Shown one piece after another: positions 1,747-32,121 of a stretch of 32,121 nucleotides of DNA. Origin of the DNA: a virus; IMG/VR virus record IMGVR_UViG_3300011129_000119, positions 1-32,121 of that record. One strand, written 5' to 3'. Position 1 is the first letter of the stretch. Each line of letters opens with the position of its first letter. The position numbers and the translations under genes are program-made. Under the pieces are notes generated by a model. That model did no database searches. It saw only the letters and a program-made list of their open reading frames with translations, and was not told the origin of the DNA.

Positions 1747-2164
1747 AACCAAGGGAGCCAATTTCGAGCTGTCTTTGTCAAAGATGTTCGAGGCAGAACT
1801 GGGTATTGAAAGGCCACTGAGAAACCTTTCGCAGTACCAGGTAAGTGGTCGGGCCGACTTGATGGCGGGACCGTTTTCTGTGGAGGCCAAAAGGTACGCC
1901 TCAGCCGCAGGTGGATGGTTCCAGGCAGATTGGTGGGAGCAAACCAAGAGCTCCGCAATCGCAGAGAATGCTATCCCGCTGCTGGTTTATAAGTACGACC
2001 GCATTGCCTCCAAGTTTGTGTTCCCGATTTACGCGGTGAATACGGAGTGGATGCATACATCTGGCGATAATTGGTCAACGTATCCAACAGACGGAAACGC
2101 GCTGATGCCGATGGTCTGCGAGCAGGATGTGGCCATGTCGATTATGAGGGAGTGGATAAGCTAA
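1730..2164 (+). CDS. PD-(D/E)XK endonuclease, possibly a resolvase
   Basis: The 144-residue protein has the PD-(D/E)XK layout: an early Glu in KGANFELSLSKMF (residues 8-20, Glu13), then GRADLMAG at 40-47 (Asp43) and SVEAKRY at 50-56 (Glu52, Lys54), followed by an aromatic-rich helix (WFQADWWEQT). Size and order fit phage Holliday-junction resolvase or nickase-like nucleases. The ATG at 1730 lies inside the end of the repressor gene; a TTG at 1724 is the alternative. It sits directly before the replication initiator and overlaps it by TAATG, so a role in processing replication intermediates is plausible. The exact substrate is inferred from fold and position only. Confidence 0.68.
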   Translation: MSRLSRTKGANFELSLSKMFEAELGIERPLRNLSQYQVSGRADLMAGPFSVEAKRYASAAGGWFQADWWEQTKSSAIAENAIPLLVYKYDRIASKFVFPIYAVNTEWMHTSGDNWSTYPTDGNALMPMVCEQDVAMSIMREWIS

Positions 2165-2631
2165 TGAGCTACCGTGCAATGGATTTAGTTTGCGCCCTGG
2201 ATATGAAAGACCCGCAAGCCAAGTACGTCTTGCTGATGATTGCCAAGCACTCCGACGATAAGCTGGAGAGCTACCCATCGGTGGAGCGCCTGGCGGTGCT
2301 GACTGGATTGTCCTCGCGCACCGTTCAAAGAAAGGTCGGCAAGCTCCGAGACGAGGGGTACGTATTCATCTCTCGACGCAACATGAACCAGAAGCAAACG
2401 AGCAACTTATACAAGTTGACTGTCAACGATAAGCCCCGTCACAGTGTCGCGAATACACGACAGAGTGTCACCCACACCCCGACAGAGTGTCACCCTAATA
2501 TATCAACTAATATATCAACTAATATATCATTGGGAGAAAATGAAAAAGTTGATTGGAATGCAGTAGGGCTAGAGGCAATGGGGCATAAAACCAAAACGAA
2601 GGGAACTGAAAATGGAAAATCAAGAAAATGA
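2164..2631 (+). CDS. winged-helix replication initiator with internal origin
   Basis: This 155-residue protein carries a winged helix-turn-helix at about residues 37-85 (SVERLAVLTGLSSRTVQRKV then a basic wing), the fold of lambda O-type and plasmid Rep initiators and of the phage replisome-organiser N-terminal domain. Residues 90-122 form a linker encoded by direct DNA repeats; three AT repeats give NISTNISTNIS. The C-terminal 30 residues are short and lysine-rich. Origin iterons inside the initiator gene's linker is exactly the lambda O arrangement. The ATG at 2164 overlaps the upstream TAA and has GGGAG in front, which excludes the longer frame from 2071. It should bind the GTGTC iterons here and in the second array near 31603-31724 and recruit a helicase, possibly through the product of the next gene. 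Confidence 0.68.
   Translation: MSYRAMDLVCALDMKDPQAKYVLLMIAKHSDDKLESYPSVERLAVLTGLSSRTVQRKVGKLRDEGYVFISRRNMNQKQTSNLYKLTVNDKPRHSVANTRQSVTHTPTECHPNISTNISTNISLGENEKVDWNAVGLEAMGHKTKTKGTENGKSRK
2434..2495 (+). repeat. iteron cluster A (three copies) within the initiator gene
   Basis: Three similar sites of about 18 bases lie head to tail: 2434-2451, 2456-2473 and 2477-2495, sharing the core CASAGTGTCRC with a C-rich flank. Copy 1 matches the inverted copy at 31624-31643 over 17 bases. The core is partly palindromic (GACAC-A-GTGTC in the best copy elsewhere), as expected for a dimeric winged-helix initiator. Confidence 0.7.
2496..2530 (+). repeat. three tandem AT-rich repeats (DNA-unwinding candidate)
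   Basis: TAATATATCAAC occurs at 2496-2507 and 2508-2519, then TAATATATCAT at 2520-2530. This run follows iteron copy 3 with no gap. Iterons next to AT-rich 12-13-mers is the classic replication-origin layout, in which the AT repeats melt first. The same three repeats recur at 31666-31699. Confidence 0.7.
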
Positions 2632-3373
2632 AATTGACAAGAATGACCGCGAACAAATAATTGCGAAGGTCATAATAAAACGCCTAACCACATTGTTCGT
2701 TAAACATGTCCACCTGCAAGATGCCGAGGCCGCTGGCCTGTACCTGTCTTCTTTGACAGAGGCAGTAAACCAGCGCATACCATCGGGCCTAACACGTGAC
2801 CACTTCGAGTCTGTTTGTGGCCGCGTTTGGGATGGTATTACACATAAAGTCAAGACAAAGTATTGGCCCAGCATCTCTGACGTGACAGCTGTGACTAGTA
2901 AAGTATCTCAAGATGTCAACCGAACAATGAGTATTGACAAGAGGATAACTCATAAATTTAAGGGCGAGGTAAACCCAGAGGAGAACCGTGTCAAGGGCCA
3001 GGGTTGGACCGAGGCCGGCGCGTGGGCTGCGCTTAAGCACACGGACGAGCTTATTTCCAGCGGTGAACTTGGACGTGGAATGGGTATGAAGCTAAGGCGT
3101 ATTCCGATTGTTGCCCTTTCCAGGATGAATATTGAAGTGGACGATACACCTCCCGCGCTAGCACCTGTGCCGACCAGTCATGTTGAGTTGCCGATGCCGC
3201 CCGCGCCTTTGCCGCCAGAAACCAAGGCGCTAAAGCCAATAATGTCAATGGACAAATCAGAACTAAACGTGCGCCTAATCGTGGACGGCGCCACCGAACC
3301 AAAGTTTGACGATACGCCGCTTATGGAAGATGAGCTTCCCGACGCACTGACATCAAACTGGGATAATCTTTAG
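2612..3373 (+). CDS. replication-module protein, possible helicase loader
   Basis: A 253-residue protein follows and overlaps the initiator by 20 bases and has AGGGA before its ATG. The N-terminal 90 residues are helical and charged, the middle contains a basic GRGMGMKLRR patch around residues 154-163, and residues 180-210 are a proline-rich linker. I do not recognise a domain and see no Walker motif. By position it matches lambda P or a primosomal DnaT-like loader that would bring host helicase to the origin, but this is inferred from gene order alone. Confidence 0.6.
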   Translation: MENQENEIDKNDREQIIAKVIIKRLTTLFVKHVHLQDAEAAGLYLSSLTEAVNQRIPSGLTRDHFESVCGRVWDGITHKVKTKYWPSISDVTAVTSKVSQDVNRTMSIDKRITHKFKGEVNPEENRVKGQGWTEAGAWAALKHTDELISSGELGRGMGMKLRRIPIVALSRMNIEVDDTPPALAPVPTSHVELPMPPAPLPPETKALKPIMSMDKSELNVRLIVDGATEPKFDDTPLMEDELPDALTSNWDNL

Positions 3374-3847: not shown

Positions 3848-4696
3848 ATGGACTTAGAAAAGTTTAGAGAAGAGCTAGCGAAAGCTGGGTTGGAGCACAC
3901 AAGTGCGTCGGCCCTGGAGCGACCGCCATGTCTTCGGGTTTTTGAGTACCTCTACCTGGGCCCTCGCCGCCGTGAGATGCCAGTCGGTGTTCCTGCGATT
4001 GCTGGAACTGCTGCCCACGATGGAATACAGGGTGTGGTATGCGATGGAACTGATATTGAAGACGCTCTGGCAGAAGCCGCCTCACTCATTAGGAGCCACA
4101 AGCCAATTAGCGATTTGGACGAATTGAAAACAAATCAGTACGTGGAAGATGTGGAGCTTGTTATCAAGAATGGTGTCGAGGCCCTGGCGCCTTACGCTGG
4201 CATGGACATGTGGCCAGAGGAGCGTATAACTCTCACACGACCCGAGCTAGCCTTACCTATGATTGGCTTTGTAGACATTGGCTCCGACGACGTAATAATT
4301 GAGCTCAAGACAAAGTGGTCACCGCTTGGCCCTCCCAAAAAAGACCTTACCCGCTCGTTCCGAAAGGTGAAGATACCGACTCGGCCAGACGAAGCACACG
4401 TTCGCCAGGTTGCGGTGTATTGGGCGGCTACAGGGAAAATGCCAATATTAATTTATATTACCAAGGAAGGTTCAGTAACATTCACAGCTGAAAACTGCGC
4501 CGACCTACGAACCGAATCTTTACTGCGACGGTTTAATCAGCTCTTGCACAATGCAATTGTCTGGGAAAATCTATTGTCCATATCTACGGACCCAAAAGTC
4601 CTGGCTATGTACATCCAGCCCGCGTGGGAAGATTTCAGATATCGCTTTATGAGCGATGAATTTCTAAAAGAAGCAAGGGAGCTTTACTCAGTATGA
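3848..4696 (+). CDS. RecB/Cas4-like PD-(D/E)XK exonuclease
   Basis: This 282-residue protein shows RecB-family motifs in order: GTAAHDGI at residues 53-60 (His57), GFVDIG at 140-145 (Asp143), VIIELKTKW at 149-157 (Glu152, Lys154) and RQVAVYWAA at 186-194 (Gln187, Tyr191). The QxxxY motif is diagnostic of RecB/Cas4-type nucleases. In phages such a nuclease commonly works with a single-strand annealing protein, and an ERF gene lies 500 bases downstream, so the pair may form a Red-like recombination system. An earlier in-frame ATG at 3812 lies upstream of the promoter's -10; the ATG at 3848 has AGAGGGG in front and is preferred. I see no cysteine cluster for an iron-sulphur centre, unlike many Cas4 proteins. 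Confidence 0.78.
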   Translation: MDLEKFREELAKAGLEHTSASALERPPCLRVFEYLYLGPRRREMPVGVPAIAGTAAHDGIQGVVCDGTDIEDALAEAASLIRSHKPISDLDELKTNQYVEDVELVIKNGVEALAPYAGMDMWPEERITLTRPELALPMIGFVDIGSDDVIIELKTKWSPLGPPKKDLTRSFRKVKIPTRPDEAHVRQVAVYWAATGKMPILIYITKEGSVTFTAENCADLRTESLLRRFNQLLHNAIVWENLLSISTDPKVLAMYIQPAWEDFRYRFMSDEFLKEARELYSV

Positions 4697-6347: not shown

Positions 6348-6686
6348 ATGAGTGGAACAGCTTTCAAATGCACACAATGTGACGGGCAGGGTCAACTGCT
6401 CATCGATGTCTCAGCTGATGGGAACGGCAGGAGCTTCGTCGAGAAGCCCTGCCCGACCTGCGAGGGAGAACGAGTTTTGACAACAGCACAATTAGTCACC
6501 GTCGATGCTGACTACACGTTAGAGCAAGAGAACTTCTTGCCTATTCCGTTGACTGGCGCATTCCGCGCTTACGTGGACGGAAATTTGTACCAGCGGAAAA
6601 TGACATCCAGGCAGCTATATAAGCTAGCGCAACAAGCCCTAAACGTGGCAATCGAAACAGAAAAATACGAGGAGGAAAAGAAGTGA
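6348..6686 (+). CDS. DnaJ-type zinc-finger protein (paired CxxC)
   Basis: The 112-residue protein begins with CTQCDGQGQ near residue 8 and CPTCEGERV near residue 35, two CxxCxGxx units like half of a DnaJ cysteine-rich domain, expected to bind one zinc. The remaining 70 residues are alpha/beta with a basic MTSRQLYKLAQQAL helix. There is no J domain. It may be a protein- or nucleic-acid-binding accessory factor. A second protein with the same paired motif is encoded at 7352. AGGAG precedes the ATG, and its stop overlaps the GTG of the DnaA-like gene. Confidence 0.62.
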   Translation: MSGTAFKCTQCDGQGQLLIDVSADGNGRSFVEKPCPTCEGERVLTTAQLVTVDADYTLEQENFLPIPLTGAFRAYVDGNLYQRKMTSRQLYKLAQQALNVAIETEKYEEEKK

Positions 6687-7201
6687 CAGTAGAAGTTTCA
6701 ATAATAGACATTCCAGAGGACCGTGACTCAGTAATCTTTTCATTGGAAAGCGCACGTAAGGCTGTGTGCGAAGCATTCGATGTAACTAAAGATGAGCTTA
6801 TGAGTAAAAGCCGAGCCAGTTATATTACGGTACCGCGCTTTGCGTTTATGTACTTGAGCTATTACCTGACGGACAATAGCACCACAGTGGTCGGCCAATA
6901 CTTGTCCAGAGACCACACGACAATCATACATGGGCTTCGCAGGGCCATTGAGCTTAAGCGCTCAAACAAAGATGGATTTGCGGAAAAGCTAGAATTAGCA
7001 ACAGAATTGGCCAGGGAAAATGAACAACGAAGAAAACAACAAATCAAAGAAATTAGAGAATTTGTCGAACAAACGCTTGCTGGAGACGATAACACAATTA
7101 ACATCCAAGCTACGGCACGAAGAGAGCCTGAGAAAGAGCTATCAAAAAAGGGCCGAATTGTCGGAGACAAAATTATCTTCGATACTGTGTGCCCCGAATG
7201 A
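6683..7201 (+). CDS. stand-alone DnaA domain-IV-like DNA-binding protein
   Basis: The 172-residue protein carries the DnaA C-terminal signature at residues 75-87 (SRDHTTIIHGLRR), preceded by a helical region matching domain IV (RKAVCEAFDVTKDELMSKS, then the PRFAFMYLSYYLT helix). In DnaA this helix-turn-helix reads the TTATNCACA box. There is no AAA+ domain, so it cannot be a complete initiator. It could compete with host DnaA for boxes, shut down host replication, or regulate phage promoters. The remaining residues (about 95-172) are a charged helix and tail. Translation starts at GTG, coupled to the previous gene by GTGA and preceded by GAGGAGG. Its tail overlaps another reading frame from 7020. 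Confidence 0.78.
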   Translation: MTVEVSIIDIPEDRDSVIFSLESARKAVCEAFDVTKDELMSKSRASYITVPRFAFMYLSYYLTDNSTTVVGQYLSRDHTTIIHGLRRAIELKRSNKDGFAEKLELATELARENEQRRKQQIKEIREFVEQTLAGDDNTINIQATARREPEKELSKKGRIVGDKIIFDTVCPE

Positions 7202-26677: not shown

Positions 26678-26946
26678 TTAACCTTATGTGACCAATATTT
26701 GGCCGAAAGTTTGCTCGTGGGTTTCCCCTGTGCATTATGCCTTGCATAATAGCTTTTTTTACGAGCCTTGTCTTTAGCAGTCTTGGGGTTTTTCCCCGCG
26801 CCCTTCACGCCCTGCTGACCGAAGCGAATGAGGCGAATCTTGTCACCCTCCTTAGCCAGCACTGCGTGGCTCTTCTTCGGATGCTTGGGGGTGCGCTTGG
26901 GTTTGTTGTATCCAGCAAAACGCTCTCCACGATATTCAATAGCCAT
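26671..26946 (-). CDS. 91-residue basic protein conserved-looking in marine phages
   Basis: The protein is strongly basic (KPKRTPKHPKKSHA, then KNPKTAKDKARKKSYYARH). It has a short beta hairpin (GDKIRLIRFGQQG) and ends in KLSAKYWSHKVKW. The pattern of RKKSYYARHN followed by SAKYW recalls a family of small basic phage proteins, but I cannot name the function. It lies between the ART gene and the other lysine-rich genes, near the portal. DNA or RNA binding is the simplest idea. Confidence 0.65.
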   Translation of the reverse strand: MAIEYRGERFAGYNKPKRTPKHPKKSHAVLAKEGDKIRLIRFGQQGVKGAGKNPKTAKDKARKKSYYARHNAQGKPTSKLSAKYWSHKVKW

Positions 26947-28343
26947 TAAAAGTTATCTTCCTTTTCTTTAGCGAGCAGGCCGCTGGCTACGGCTGGGGCG
27001 GCGACTAGTCCCGCGCCTCCAGCAGTTAGATTTTTCAAGTCTTTTAACCTGGGGTCAAAACGGGCTTCTGGCGACCGAATATTTTTAGGTTCAAAAACCA
27101 CCGTTTCGTCACCCACCCGTATTCCGTCGTACCCAGCTTTGCTGGCCTGCTCAGAAAGTTCTAAAGGGCCCTTTCCGCCGACCCTAACGTAATCAGACAG
27201 TGAGTAAAGTATATTCTCCAAACCCTTAAACGGACTTTTGGAGCTGTATTGCATTTCATCTATAAACTTACGTTTAGCTCTGTTTTTTGCTTCTTCCTTT
27301 GTGAGCGGCACCTGTTGGTCATGGTGGCGCGGCCTAAAGGGAGTGTCTATAGTGTCGAGATAAGTCTTATCTTTATAAACCCTAGGCTCCCTTGTCGGGT
27401 CAGCAATCATGGCCATGTAACCAGTTGAGCCGTCTGCGTTATCAACAAGTGCATAAGAGATGTTTTCATCGACATATTTATCAATATCCCGCAGTGAGCT
27501 CAATCCTATCTGTGTCGGCTCGTCTAACATATCAATTTTGTCTAACTCATTAGCCCACCACTTAAAGTACTCTGGGTCACCTAGAGTTTTATCTCCAACC
27601 CTGTCGCTTAGGTCTAAAAAGTTACCCTTTAAATTGTACTCACCAACATTCGGGCCGTAGTATCTGGCCTCTCCCGAATGAGGCGTAAAGTAGTGTCCAC
27701 TTCCGTAAAATCCCTCGTCCCTAAGTCCTATTTTACTATCGTCAAACGCCAGTATCTCGTCACTATGTGTTCCGTGGTACATCGGGCTGTCCACGTCAAA
27801 CCCCATCTCCCTTGCGCGGGCCATCCGACTCTCAGGGTCCATTGGAAGGTCGTAATTTTCAGACAAGTATCTTGGGTCTGCCTTCCCAAGCATTTCATCA
27901 CTTACCTCGTCGGCCTTGCCTGACTTGAGCAGGTCAATCACATCTTGCGCTTGTTTTTCAGCGTCGGTTAGGCGCCTAGCCAGCTGTGCGGCTCGTGGTG
28001 CGGAAAGGGCCGCCCCTGGAACAGCTGCCGCACCCGCTGTAAACGGAGCAACAGCGTAAAAAGCATCCCCTAGCAATCCAGCGCTCTGGAAGGCCGCATC
28101 CAGTATGTTACCTTGGGAAATGTTTTGTCCAGCGCTAGGGAGCGTCTGCGACGGATTCATCGGGTCTGGGTATCGCCCATAGAAGTCTGCTGTCGCTGCG
28201 CCTGGGGCGAACTGACCAGCCACCAAGCCAGACGCTTCTGGGTTGTTTTTTGCAAAGTTTACTAGGTTGGAGCCAGCATCATACAGACCCACCGACGAGT
28301 CCATAATCAATTGTCCAACAGTTCTTCCGTATGGGCTAGGCAT
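26946..28343 (-). CDS. polyvalent ADP-ribosyltransferase-domain virion protein
   Basis: The 465-residue protein has two parts. Residues 1-110 form a Gly/Ala-rich module opening with MPSPYGRTVGQL and shared with the next upstream gene. Residues about 180-430 match ART domains of phage polyvalent proteins: SPMYHGTHSDEILAFDDSKIG from residue 186 (His190), GFYGSGHYFTPHSGEARYYG at 211-230 (Tyr218), and AGYDGIRVGDETVVFEPKNI from residue 403 (probable Glu413), giving an H-Y-E-like triad. Such domains attach ADP-ribose from NAD to host targets. Sited between terminase and portal, it is likely packaged and injected. The target is unknown and activity is not shown. Confidence 0.72.
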   Translation of the reverse strand: MPSPYGRTVGQLIMDSSVGLYDAGSNLVNFAKNNPEASGLVAGQFAPGAATADFYGRYPDPMNPSQTLPSAGQNISQGNILDAAFQSAGLLGDAFYAVAPFTAGAAAVPGAALSAPRAAQLARRLTDAEKQAQDVIDLLKSGKADEVSDEMLGKADPRYLSENYDLPMDPESRMARAREMGFDVDSPMYHGTHSDEILAFDDSKIGLRDEGFYGSGHYFTPHSGEARYYGPNVGEYNLKGNFLDLSDRVGDKTLGDPEYFKWWANELDKIDMLDEPTQIGLSSLRDIDKYVDENISYALVDNADGSTGYMAMIADPTREPRVYKDKTYLDTIDTPFRPRHHDQQVPLTKEEAKNRAKRKFIDEMQYSSKSPFKGLENILYSLSDYVRVGGKGPLELSEQASKAGYDGIRVGDETVVFEPKNIRSPEARFDPRLKDLKNLTAGGAGLVAAPAVASGLLAKEKEDNF

Positions 28344-29820: not shown

Positions 29821-30050
29821 TAACAGTCTCCGTAGATACCTTCTTCAGTCACTTTAATAGACCGTATGATAGTCATATAATCGTCAGGATGCAACTCGGC
29901 TTCTTGAGCGCAGAAGGCAGAGGCAAGCAAGCAAGTGTCAACTAAGTCTTCCCACTTCTCACCCTGTTCACTTAGCTGCTGGAGGACCATCGCCAACAGC
30001 TCGAATGACTCATCAACATAATCCTCGCCGTCAAATTTTAAACTATCCAT
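29820..30050 (-). CDS. 76-residue acidic hypothetical protein
   Basis: The product from ATG 30050 is acidic and helical: MDSLKFDGEDYVDESFELLA, then a Gln/Glu helix with two cysteines (VDTCLLASAFCAQEAEL) and LHPDDYMTIIRSIKVT. An earlier ATG at 30083 would add 11 residues but has no good ribosome site, while GGAAAA precedes the chosen one. It overlaps the terminase stop by 13 bases. No family is assigned; it may be a terminase partner. Confidence 0.58.
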   Translation of the reverse strand: MDSLKFDGEDYVDESFELLAMVLQQLSEQGEKWEDLVDTCLLASAFCAQEAELHPDDYMTIIRSIKVTEEGIYGDC

Positions 30051-31435
30051 TTTGATTTTCCATAATTTATACTCTTGTTCCATTTGTGGGCACCGCCGCT
30101 CTTGGCAATGCTAGCACGAGAGGCAAAGGTTAGGCAAAAGGCATCCGCAAGGTCAGGACTGTTAAGTCCACGCCTTTTCATTTCATCTTTTCCTTCGACC
30201 TTCAGCTTGCCGTTAGACAAGAATGTAAATCTAGGTTTGGATAGGTCGTCGATAAGCTCTTCTTGGTCAGGTATCGCGCAGTCACGAGTCTCAAACCATT
30301 CTTTGCCTAAAAACCACAGCTCATCGCGCAGACGTCCATAACGCTCACCCATGGAAGCGGACTCTGCCACGTTAATTCCCCTGACAGGTAAATCAAGTTC
30401 GGTGAGGCGGTCAACGACACCAGCGCCAAGGCCAATGCTGTCGATAAGAATTTCGACTGGCCTATCAGACCAAGTAGTTGTTTCATATTCATTGAGTATA
30501 ATTCCACACATTTCCATCAAATCTTTGTTTCGCCAAGACTTGATAGGCTCAGTTACCACATTACCCTTGCGCTTGCAAAGGGCAGATTTATCTGTGCCAA
30601 AACGTGCCACATCCAGGCCCCAAACAACGGGTGTCGTGTCGGCTGGGACTTGGTCACGTGTTGCAGCGGACTGCAGGAGGTGGAGTGGAATCACTACGTC
30701 GTCGTCTGCCTCTGGCCACTCTCCAAGCACACGCACACGGAAGATATTACTATCCTCTCCATATTTTTTTATCATGTCGTCAATAAACTTAGGGCCGACC
30801 TGCGTACTATCTTGAGACGCAACCTTCATTGTAAAGAAGCTATCTTTCATTTTATTGAAGGCTTCGTAGAAGTAGCCAGACGTGCGAGTGGGGTTGCCCG
30901 TCATCACGGTCTTCGCACCCTCTGTAGACATTGCACCTTCGCCAACCTCAAAAATAATGTCATCCACACCCGACGCCTCGTCTACAAGGAAGAGCATGTT
31001 TTGACTGTGGAACCCTTGCAGGGCCTCTGGCGTCTCTCGACGGGCCGTACGAGCCACAGCGAAGCTGTCCTGGCCCGTTAGCTCAACCTTTGCGGAGGTG
31101 ACTTCAATAAGCTCCTTGAGGCCATCAGGCATACGTCTGTGCCACTTGGCGACCTCAGCCCAAAGGATATCAGAAAGCTGACTTGCGGTGTTGGCGGTGC
31201 AGGCAATGCGACTGGGGGAGCGGGTGAGCACCCACCAAAGTATCAACCAAGAAAGGAACGCAGTTTTGCCGATACCGTGACCAGAGCGGATGGCCACCCT
31301 GTCGTTGTCTCGGACTGCGTACAAGGCTTTGCGCTGCCAGTCTTCTGGCTTTGCATTCAAGACACCCTCCACGAAAAGAACGGGGTCCAGTGCTATTGCT
31401 ACTAGAAGGTCACTTGTGTTGTTTTCATTCGACAT
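30038..31435 (-). CDS. terL: terminase large subunit (ATPase/nuclease)
   Basis: The 465-residue protein has all core terminase parts. Walker A is SGHGIGKT at residues 51-58, and Walker B with catalytic Glu is MLFLVDEASG at 147-156. The RNase-H-like nuclease has acidic residues in WGLDVARFG at 272-280 (Asp275), IDSIGLGAG at 331-339 (Asp332) and NSPDLADAF at 425-433 (Asp428 or Asp431). It drives DNA into the prohead and cuts it. A GTG start at 31486 would add 17 residues, but the ATG at 31435 has AGGGA seven bases before it. The protein is moderately close to P22-like terminases in layout; packaging type is not decided here. Confidence 0.93.
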   Translation of the reverse strand: MSNENNTSDLLVAIALDPVLFVEGVLNAKPEDWQRKALYAVRDNDRVAIRSGHGIGKTAFLSWLILWWVLTRSPSRIACTANTASQLSDILWAEVAKWHRRMPDGLKELIEVTSAKVELTGQDSFAVARTARRETPEALQGFHSQNMLFLVDEASGVDDIIFEVGEGAMSTEGAKTVMTGNPTRTSGYFYEAFNKMKDSFFTMKVASQDSTQVGPKFIDDMIKKYGEDSNIFRVRVLGEWPEADDDVVIPLHLLQSAATRDQVPADTTPVVWGLDVARFGTDKSALCKRKGNVVTEPIKSWRNKDLMEMCGIILNEYETTTWSDRPVEILIDSIGLGAGVVDRLTELDLPVRGINVAESASMGERYGRLRDELWFLGKEWFETRDCAIPDQEELIDDLSKPRFTFLSNGKLKVEGKDEMKRRGLNSPDLADAFCLTFASRASIAKSGGAHKWNKSINYGKSKWIV

Positions 31436-31602: not shown

Positions 31603-31724
31603 GGGGTGACACTGTGTCGTTTAGGGGCGACACTGTGACGGGGGTGGGGTGTCAGGCTGTCACCCTAATATATCACTTAATATATCAGTAATATATCATG
31701 TTTTAGGGCGACACTCTGACGGGG
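31603..31724 (-). repeat. iteron cluster B (four copies) around AT repeats
   Basis: Sites are at 31603-31619 and 31624-31643 (inverted relative to array A), 31651-31665 (direct, degenerate) and 31706-31724 (inverted). Site 31624-31643 equals array A copy 1 over 17 bases. Sites 31603-31619 and 31706-31724 differ from array A copies by one or a few bases. GACACAGTGTC in the first copy is a perfect odd palindrome. Confidence 0.72.
31666..31699 (+). repeat. AT-rich repeats B (unwinding element)
   Basis: TAATATATCACT (31666-31677), TAATATATCAG (31678-31688) and TAATATATCAT (31689-31699) are tandem AT repeats of 11 or 12 bases. They have the same sequence and order as at 2496-2530, and follow CACCC in the same way. 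The preserved register with the neighbouring iteron argues for a functional unit rather than random similarity. Confidence 0.7.
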
Positions 31725-31753
31725 CTAAATCAGAAAAGAAAAAAAATTTTCAG

Positions 31754-31868
31754 AGGGGGTATATAGGTGGGCTAACTGAAAGGGGGGTGGGGGGGGTAAA
31801 GGGGTCACGTTATTTGAATTAGGTATATTTATTCCTGCCCCCGTCCCTGTGTTCGAAGGGGGGGGTAT
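31754..31868 (+). other. G-run tract (possible G-quadruplex)
   Basis: Several G runs (five or more) cluster here: 31754-31758, 31782-31787 and 31789-31796, a four-G run at 31801-31804, and a run of eleven G at 31858-31865 and neighbours. A C-run with CCCCCG follows at 31838-31842. The runs lie on the strand opposite to leftward transcription, so the RNA would be C-rich. No coding interpretation fits. Confidence 0.5.
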
Positions 31869-31945: not shown

Positions 31946-32060
31946 CTAATCCGAATCAGCCTCATCGACAACCTCAACATCAATGACCTGCGCCTGGTCG
32001 CTCTTCTGCCTAGCAAGAGCAGCCTGGACACCTGCCAGTCCATCGGCCAACGTATCACCC
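31946..32060 (-). CDS. C-terminal fragment, probable terminase small subunit
   Basis: Only the last 38 codons are visible before the adapter junction. The readable end is GDTLADGLAGVQAALARQKS followed by DQAQVIDVEVVDEADSD and a TAG stop at 31946-31948. The Ala/Gln-rich helix and acidic tail, and its place directly upstream of terL, are typical of small terminases, which recognise the packaging site. The N-terminal part is missing because the contig ends in adapter sequence. The frame that runs across the junction (a different one, ending near 31912) is an artefact. The small-terminase identity is inferred from position. Confidence 0.5.
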
Positions 32061-32121
32061 GAAGAGCACACGTCTGAACTCCAGTCACAGTCAACAATCT
32101 CGTATGCCGTCTTCTGCTTGA
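32061..32121 (+). other. Illumina TruSeq index adapter (not phage DNA)
   Basis: The bases from GAAGAGCACACGTCTGAACT through CCAGTCAC and the index-like AGTCAACA, to ATCTCGTATGCCGTCTTCTG plus CTTGA, match the TruSeq indexed adapter; AGTCAA is index 13. The usual adapter start (AGATCG) is absent, so the join happened inside the adapter at GAAGAGC, perhaps by a short overlap with real phage sequence. These 61 bases should be trimmed. Confidence 0.95.

Follow-up and report, generated by a model that had tools for sequence, protein, structure and literature searches.

A single initiator with binding repeats at two separated sites is known from satellite phage P4, whose alpha protein is a helicase-primase and whose second site, crr, acts together with ori (ori1). 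In phage SPP1, oriL lies inside gene 38 and oriR elsewhere, both are bound by gp38 (G38P), and two models exist for oriR, as a late origin or as a fork barrier that starts concatemer synthesis (PMC6316719, PMC3485210). In phage lambda, the AT-rich part of the origin is dispensable for O binding and needed for unwinding (PMC7466680). Here, we analysed an IMG/VR viral contig of 32,121 nucleotides (the whole stretch, hereafter the window) carrying two arrays of iterons and AT repeats, designated A and B, with the following features:

2164..2631, plus strand: replication initiator of 155 aa (PF13730 HTH_36, E 1.6e-10; PHROG replication initiation proteins, E 6e-18), with a winged helix (residues ~1-88), a disordered linker encoded by array A (90-128) and a C-terminal helix (131-138)
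2434-2530, plus strand: array A as a whole, coding, in frame, in the linker of the initiator
2434..2493, plus strand: iterons of array A, palindromes at 2438-2448, 2459-2469 and 2481-2491
2494..2530, plus strand: AT repeats of array A, three copies of TAATATATCA with a 12-bp period, predicted unwinding element
2612..3373, plus strand: gene after the initiator, with homologous genes at the equivalent position in L035 and in L048, which has no array B
30038..31435, minus strand: terminase large subunit (terL), directly downstream of array B; ORF open to 31486; PHROG E 8e-50
31604-31724: array B as a whole, non-coding, between terL and a terS-like gene
31604..31663: iterons 1-3 of array B, at 31608-31618, 31629-31639 and 31651-31661
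31664..31700, plus strand: AT repeats of array B, three copies of TAATATATCA (31666, 31678, 31689), predicted unwinding element
31710..31720: fourth iteron of array B, beyond the AT repeats, at a position conserved in relatives
31949..32060, minus strand: 3' end of the terS-like gene, truncated by the contig end; complete in L062 (1035-1388)

The iterons of array A are near-palindromic, of the form GACAnnnTGTC, with GTCACAGTGTC at 2438 and GACAGAGTGTC at 2459 and 2481 (spacing 21/22), and they are followed by CACCC and then by three copies of TAATATATCA at 2496, 2508 and 2520. The AlphaFold2 model of the initiator gave pLDDT values of ~91-96 for residues 1-70, 72-79 for residues 71-90 and below 50 for residues 90-128, and a Foldseek comparison of this model with known structures returned generic winged-helix matches only, none below E 0.001. 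The original prediction that three iterons and three AT repeats lie in the linker of the initiator was confirmed, in frame and at 2434-2530. Iterons and an AT-rich element within the initiator coding sequence are the arrangement of the embedded origin of lambda O, where an AT-rich unwinding region likewise comes after iterons that are imperfect inverted repeats, the whole lying mid-gene in O (PMC7466680). The lambda iterons are 19 bp and O is longer, whereas in the window the palindrome cores are 11 bp and recur every ~22 bp, the initiator has 155 aa, and a second unit exists that is non-coding. Unlike P4 alpha, the winged-helix initiator carries neither a helicase nor a primase domain. In the recognition helix (residues ~50-56, window 2311-2331), the residue after RTV or its equivalent varies among relatives with the iteron arm, Q pairing with GACA/GGCA, R with GGGCA, Y with CTCA, H with TGACA and T/S with GTCA, which is a possible specificity code.

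The iterons and AT repeats recur in non-coding DNA near terL, as had been predicted from the sequence, and the 43-nt iteron-plus-AT part of B matches A in the same orientation with 91% identity. B is not a simple copy of A, since its first two iterons are inverted relative to their match in A (40 nt, 88%) and a fourth iteron, absent from the A of the window, follows the AT repeats. The terS-like gene upstream probably encodes the small terminase, judging from its position and its homology to the gene preceding terL in L035. The last 61 bases of the window (32061-32121) are an Illumina TruSeq adapter (index AGTCAACA), an assembly artefact that also interrupts this gene. In the near relative L062, in which B is identical and terL 99% identical, the contig ends of the window are joined by ~280 bp holding most of the terS-like gene; thus A and B, ~29 kb apart on the contig, are ~3 kb apart on the circular map. 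Beside B, at 31725-31860 and in the same slot of relatives, AAAAWTTTT, GGGTA and a tract of 7-9 G are conserved, whether or not array B is present.

Such a recurrence is not expected by chance. The whole 32-kb contig contains six exact matches to TAATATATCA, all of them in the arrays and three in each (expected 0.03; 0 of 100 shuffles); TGTCACCCTAATATATCA has exactly two matches in the contig, both perfect, even with three mismatches allowed (expected 0.02). When the whole initiator gene was searched against its own genome, B was the only match besides the gene itself. Among all 38-bp stretches of the 32,121-base contig, nearest-neighbour energy ranks the AT repeats of A as the least stable and those of B as the second least stable. 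Within the sequence examined per genome, B ranked first or second in all 13 genomes carrying both loci and A ranked first to sixth, usually taking the other of the two top places, and these ranks held despite the sequence differences between arrays. In slots without B, the least stable stretch ranked 6th to 147th. The GC skew turns near B, which does not discriminate because the turn coincides with the change of coding strand.

Relatives, all of them metagenomic assemblies, were collected with terL as bait, giving 80 loci, with the initiator also present in 12 of those records. A scan of IMG/VR with the single initiator protein found no relatives, a search for the AT-repeat pattern in DNA yielded, besides chance matches, the useful contigs L007 and L008, megablast of the window against named phages gave no match, and a host search through terL in GTDB genomes returned distant matches only. 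Both loci are present in 13 genomes; in 12 of these, the iterons and AT repeats of A agree with those of B, although they differ widely from genome to genome. When A was compared locally with its own locus, the matches clustered upstream of terL, again in 12 of 13. Examples of the classes are GGCAnnGTGCC (G017), AGTCTCAnnnTGAGACT (G015), TGACAGnnTGTCA-like iterons with ACTAGTAA repeats (G018) and TAGTCAnnnTGACTA with AATAAGT-like repeats (G005). Across the eight classes, pairing each A with the B of its own genome scored best of 40,320 permutations, which ignore shared ancestry; iterons alone ranked 1 of 40,320 and AT repeats alone, more weakly, 32 of 40,320. Arrays in the fragmentary genomes L102, L105 and L108 also match, and those of L104 broadly do so. 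Because both signals change with the initiator in nearly all relatives, the second one very probably works.

Since the permutation test ignores shared ancestry, the mosaic structure of close relatives matters. Among these, the ~120 bp of B are exchanged as a cassette while the sequence on either side is conserved: L035, L036 and L074 show 100% identity over the 139 bp that flank B towards terL, yet their B cassettes share only 53-64%. At A, the replaced segment comprises the winged helix and the array and lies between recognisable flanks. Compared with G017 protein by protein, only the winged-helix domain sorts with array class, being 100% identical in G034 and G035 (same GGCA class) and 44-47% identical in the other-class genomes G018 and G036. 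For the terS-like gene, identity to G017 is 98% in G018, of another class, and 29% in G035, of the same class; the gene in the loader position, the resolvase and the VRR-like gene vary independently of array class, and the Cro-like gene does not track it either. This sorting points to the DNA-binding domain of the initiator as the probable ligand of B, and the exchange shows that two separated DNA sites have apparently been kept matched to one protein domain through recombination. We also observed that many contigs end ~180-380 bp upstream of terL, at the B slot (L013, L015, L018, L022, L023, L027, L029, L033, L042, L046 and L047), which is expected if strain-level cassette variation breaks assembly there or if this is a physical genome end.

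The exceptions are of several kinds. G013 has an A cassette of the G018 class and is 99-100% identical to G035 over 4 kb including B, possibly as a natural recombinant or through misassembly. L112 has the initiator and A, but its B slot holds a single degenerate iteron and lacks the AT repeats; B is therefore not an absolute requirement. Neither an HTH_36 initiator nor an array was found in L044 (a 31.5 kb record) or L048, the array is absent from L039, L041, L042 and L049, whose contigs are too short to judge the initiator, and L040 has a B with a quite different iteron. In L048, where the winged-helix initiator gene is missing, the gene in the loader position is preceded by non-coding DNA with ATAACAC-like repeats (4180-4400), which may be a different kind of origin. 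Among named phages with HTH-type initiators (Y8A, Vibrio 431E45.1, GF-2, D_HF5_3 and C72C1), no second copy of the initiator-gene array was found, Y8A giving a single 15-nt chance match. Phage C72C1 (OQ984150.1) resembles the window in its terL (58% identical) and in an HTH-type initiator with GTGACA..TGTCA repeats in the gene; however, this initiator is longer (275 aa versus 155 aa) and its gene matches nowhere else in the genome.

The reading that we consider probable is that A and B are two initiator-bound origin units of the SPP1 type, B being a second origin or a concatemer switch. What is observed is that the two sites are built alike, co-vary and have very low duplex stability, and that cassettes are exchanged in step with the DNA-binding domain; from the co-variation we infer that one initiator binds both arrays, and unwinding, origin use and timing are proposals. 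The winged-helix initiator, probably in dimeric or higher-order form, would bind the palindromic iterons of both arrays and would open the adjoining AT repeats at each. A, within the initiator gene, would be the founding origin, probably so because relatives with A and without B exist (L112 and C72C1). B, in the terS-terL slot, would be a second initiator-dependent unit working like SPP1 oriR, either as a second (late) origin or as a bound origin that stalls the fork coming from A and so leads to recombination-dependent concatemer replication beside the packaging genes. The retention of co-varying AT repeats at B speaks for unwinding rather than mere binding, by analogy with the role of the AT-rich part in lambda. 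The window also encodes an Erf-like annealing protein, an SSB-like protein and a Holliday-junction-resolvase-like protein, compatible with a theta-to-concatemer switch. For the gene at 2612..3373, family and PHROG searches matched no family of known function; from its position it is a possible helicase loader. Elsewhere in the window, a protein encoded at 6683-7201 has DnaA domain IV (Bac_DnaA_C, E 9.5e-18) without the ATPase domain and could bind DnaA boxes or compete with host DnaA, and a virion-region protein (26946-28343) has a YHGT...GFYGSGHYF segment that by eye resembles ADP-ribosyltransferase-like domains.

As in SPP1, one origin-like unit of the window lies in the initiator gene and a second in non-coding late-region DNA, and both consist of repeats and an AT-rich unwinding element (PMC6316719, PMC3485210), the second unit having the same repeats and AT-rich element as the first. 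The SPP1 origins are ~12-13 kb apart and oriR sits in a segment with three moron genes, whereas A and B are ~3 kb apart and B sits between the terS-like gene and terL. The claim of two lambda-O-like origin units, one coding and one non-coding, is strongly supported by relatives, through the A/B co-variation, the low stability and the tracking of the winged helix; the idea that two such units would be unprecedented was not borne out, because SPP1 oriL and oriR share one initiator with one origin in its gene. It is a tentative further proposal, which we hold to be doubtful, that the initiator bound beside the terminase genes would form a dedicated switch coupling replication to late expression and packaging rather than an ordinary second origin; this would act by fork stalling or late-promoter control, the two sites being kept matched by repeated concerted cassette exchange.

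Among the alternatives to two origin units, the one that survives best, though unlikely, is that B is a transcriptional control site rather than an origin, at which the initiator just upstream of the terL promoter couples late expression to replication. B does usually lie ~150-310 bp upstream of terL and in the same orientation (540-740 bp in G006 and G008), and a promoter-like TTGCAT/TATATT pair, read by eye, abuts it. However, consensus promoter scans did not report this pair, the flanking pattern on the terL side is the same in relatives without B, and a control site could do without the AT repeats of B, which co-vary with their counterparts in A and belong to the two least stable stretches. 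In plasmids, iteron clusters limit initiation by titration or handcuffing, and B might similarly bind spare initiator or pair with A. Matched iterons separated by ~3 kb of the circular map would suit this (they point the same way in the window and opposite ways in the G017 group), as would the loss of B in L112, which shows that B can be dispensable. Iterons alone would suffice for titration, yet the AT repeats are retained and co-vary (32 of 40,320), and we regard this reading as more improbable still. Both regulation of terL and titration of the initiator are less likely than two origin units because neither needs the AT repeats. That B is a non-functional duplicate or relic fits its decay in L112 and the relatives without it, and is very improbable, as a relic would not be expected to change repeatedly along with A across classes or to be replaced together with the winged helix. 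Equally improbable are packaging (pac/cos) signals, suggested by the place of B between terminase genes, or sites of another phage regulator: the same array also occurs within the initiator gene, and the Cro-like and terS-like genes do not track array class.

Literature searches returned no report of a second array in this clade. As far as we found, three things are new: the clade itself, the location of the second unit between the terS-like gene and terL, and the fact that two separated cassettes have repeatedly been exchanged in concert with a DNA-binding domain. What is understood of a second initiator-bound origin in phages comes mostly from SPP1. The present clade supplies a set of natural variants, with initiator and array matched in at least eight classes, mismatched in one genome, B decayed in another and B absent from several more, and both the function of a second origin and the specificity of winged-helix residues for iterons therefore become directly testable.
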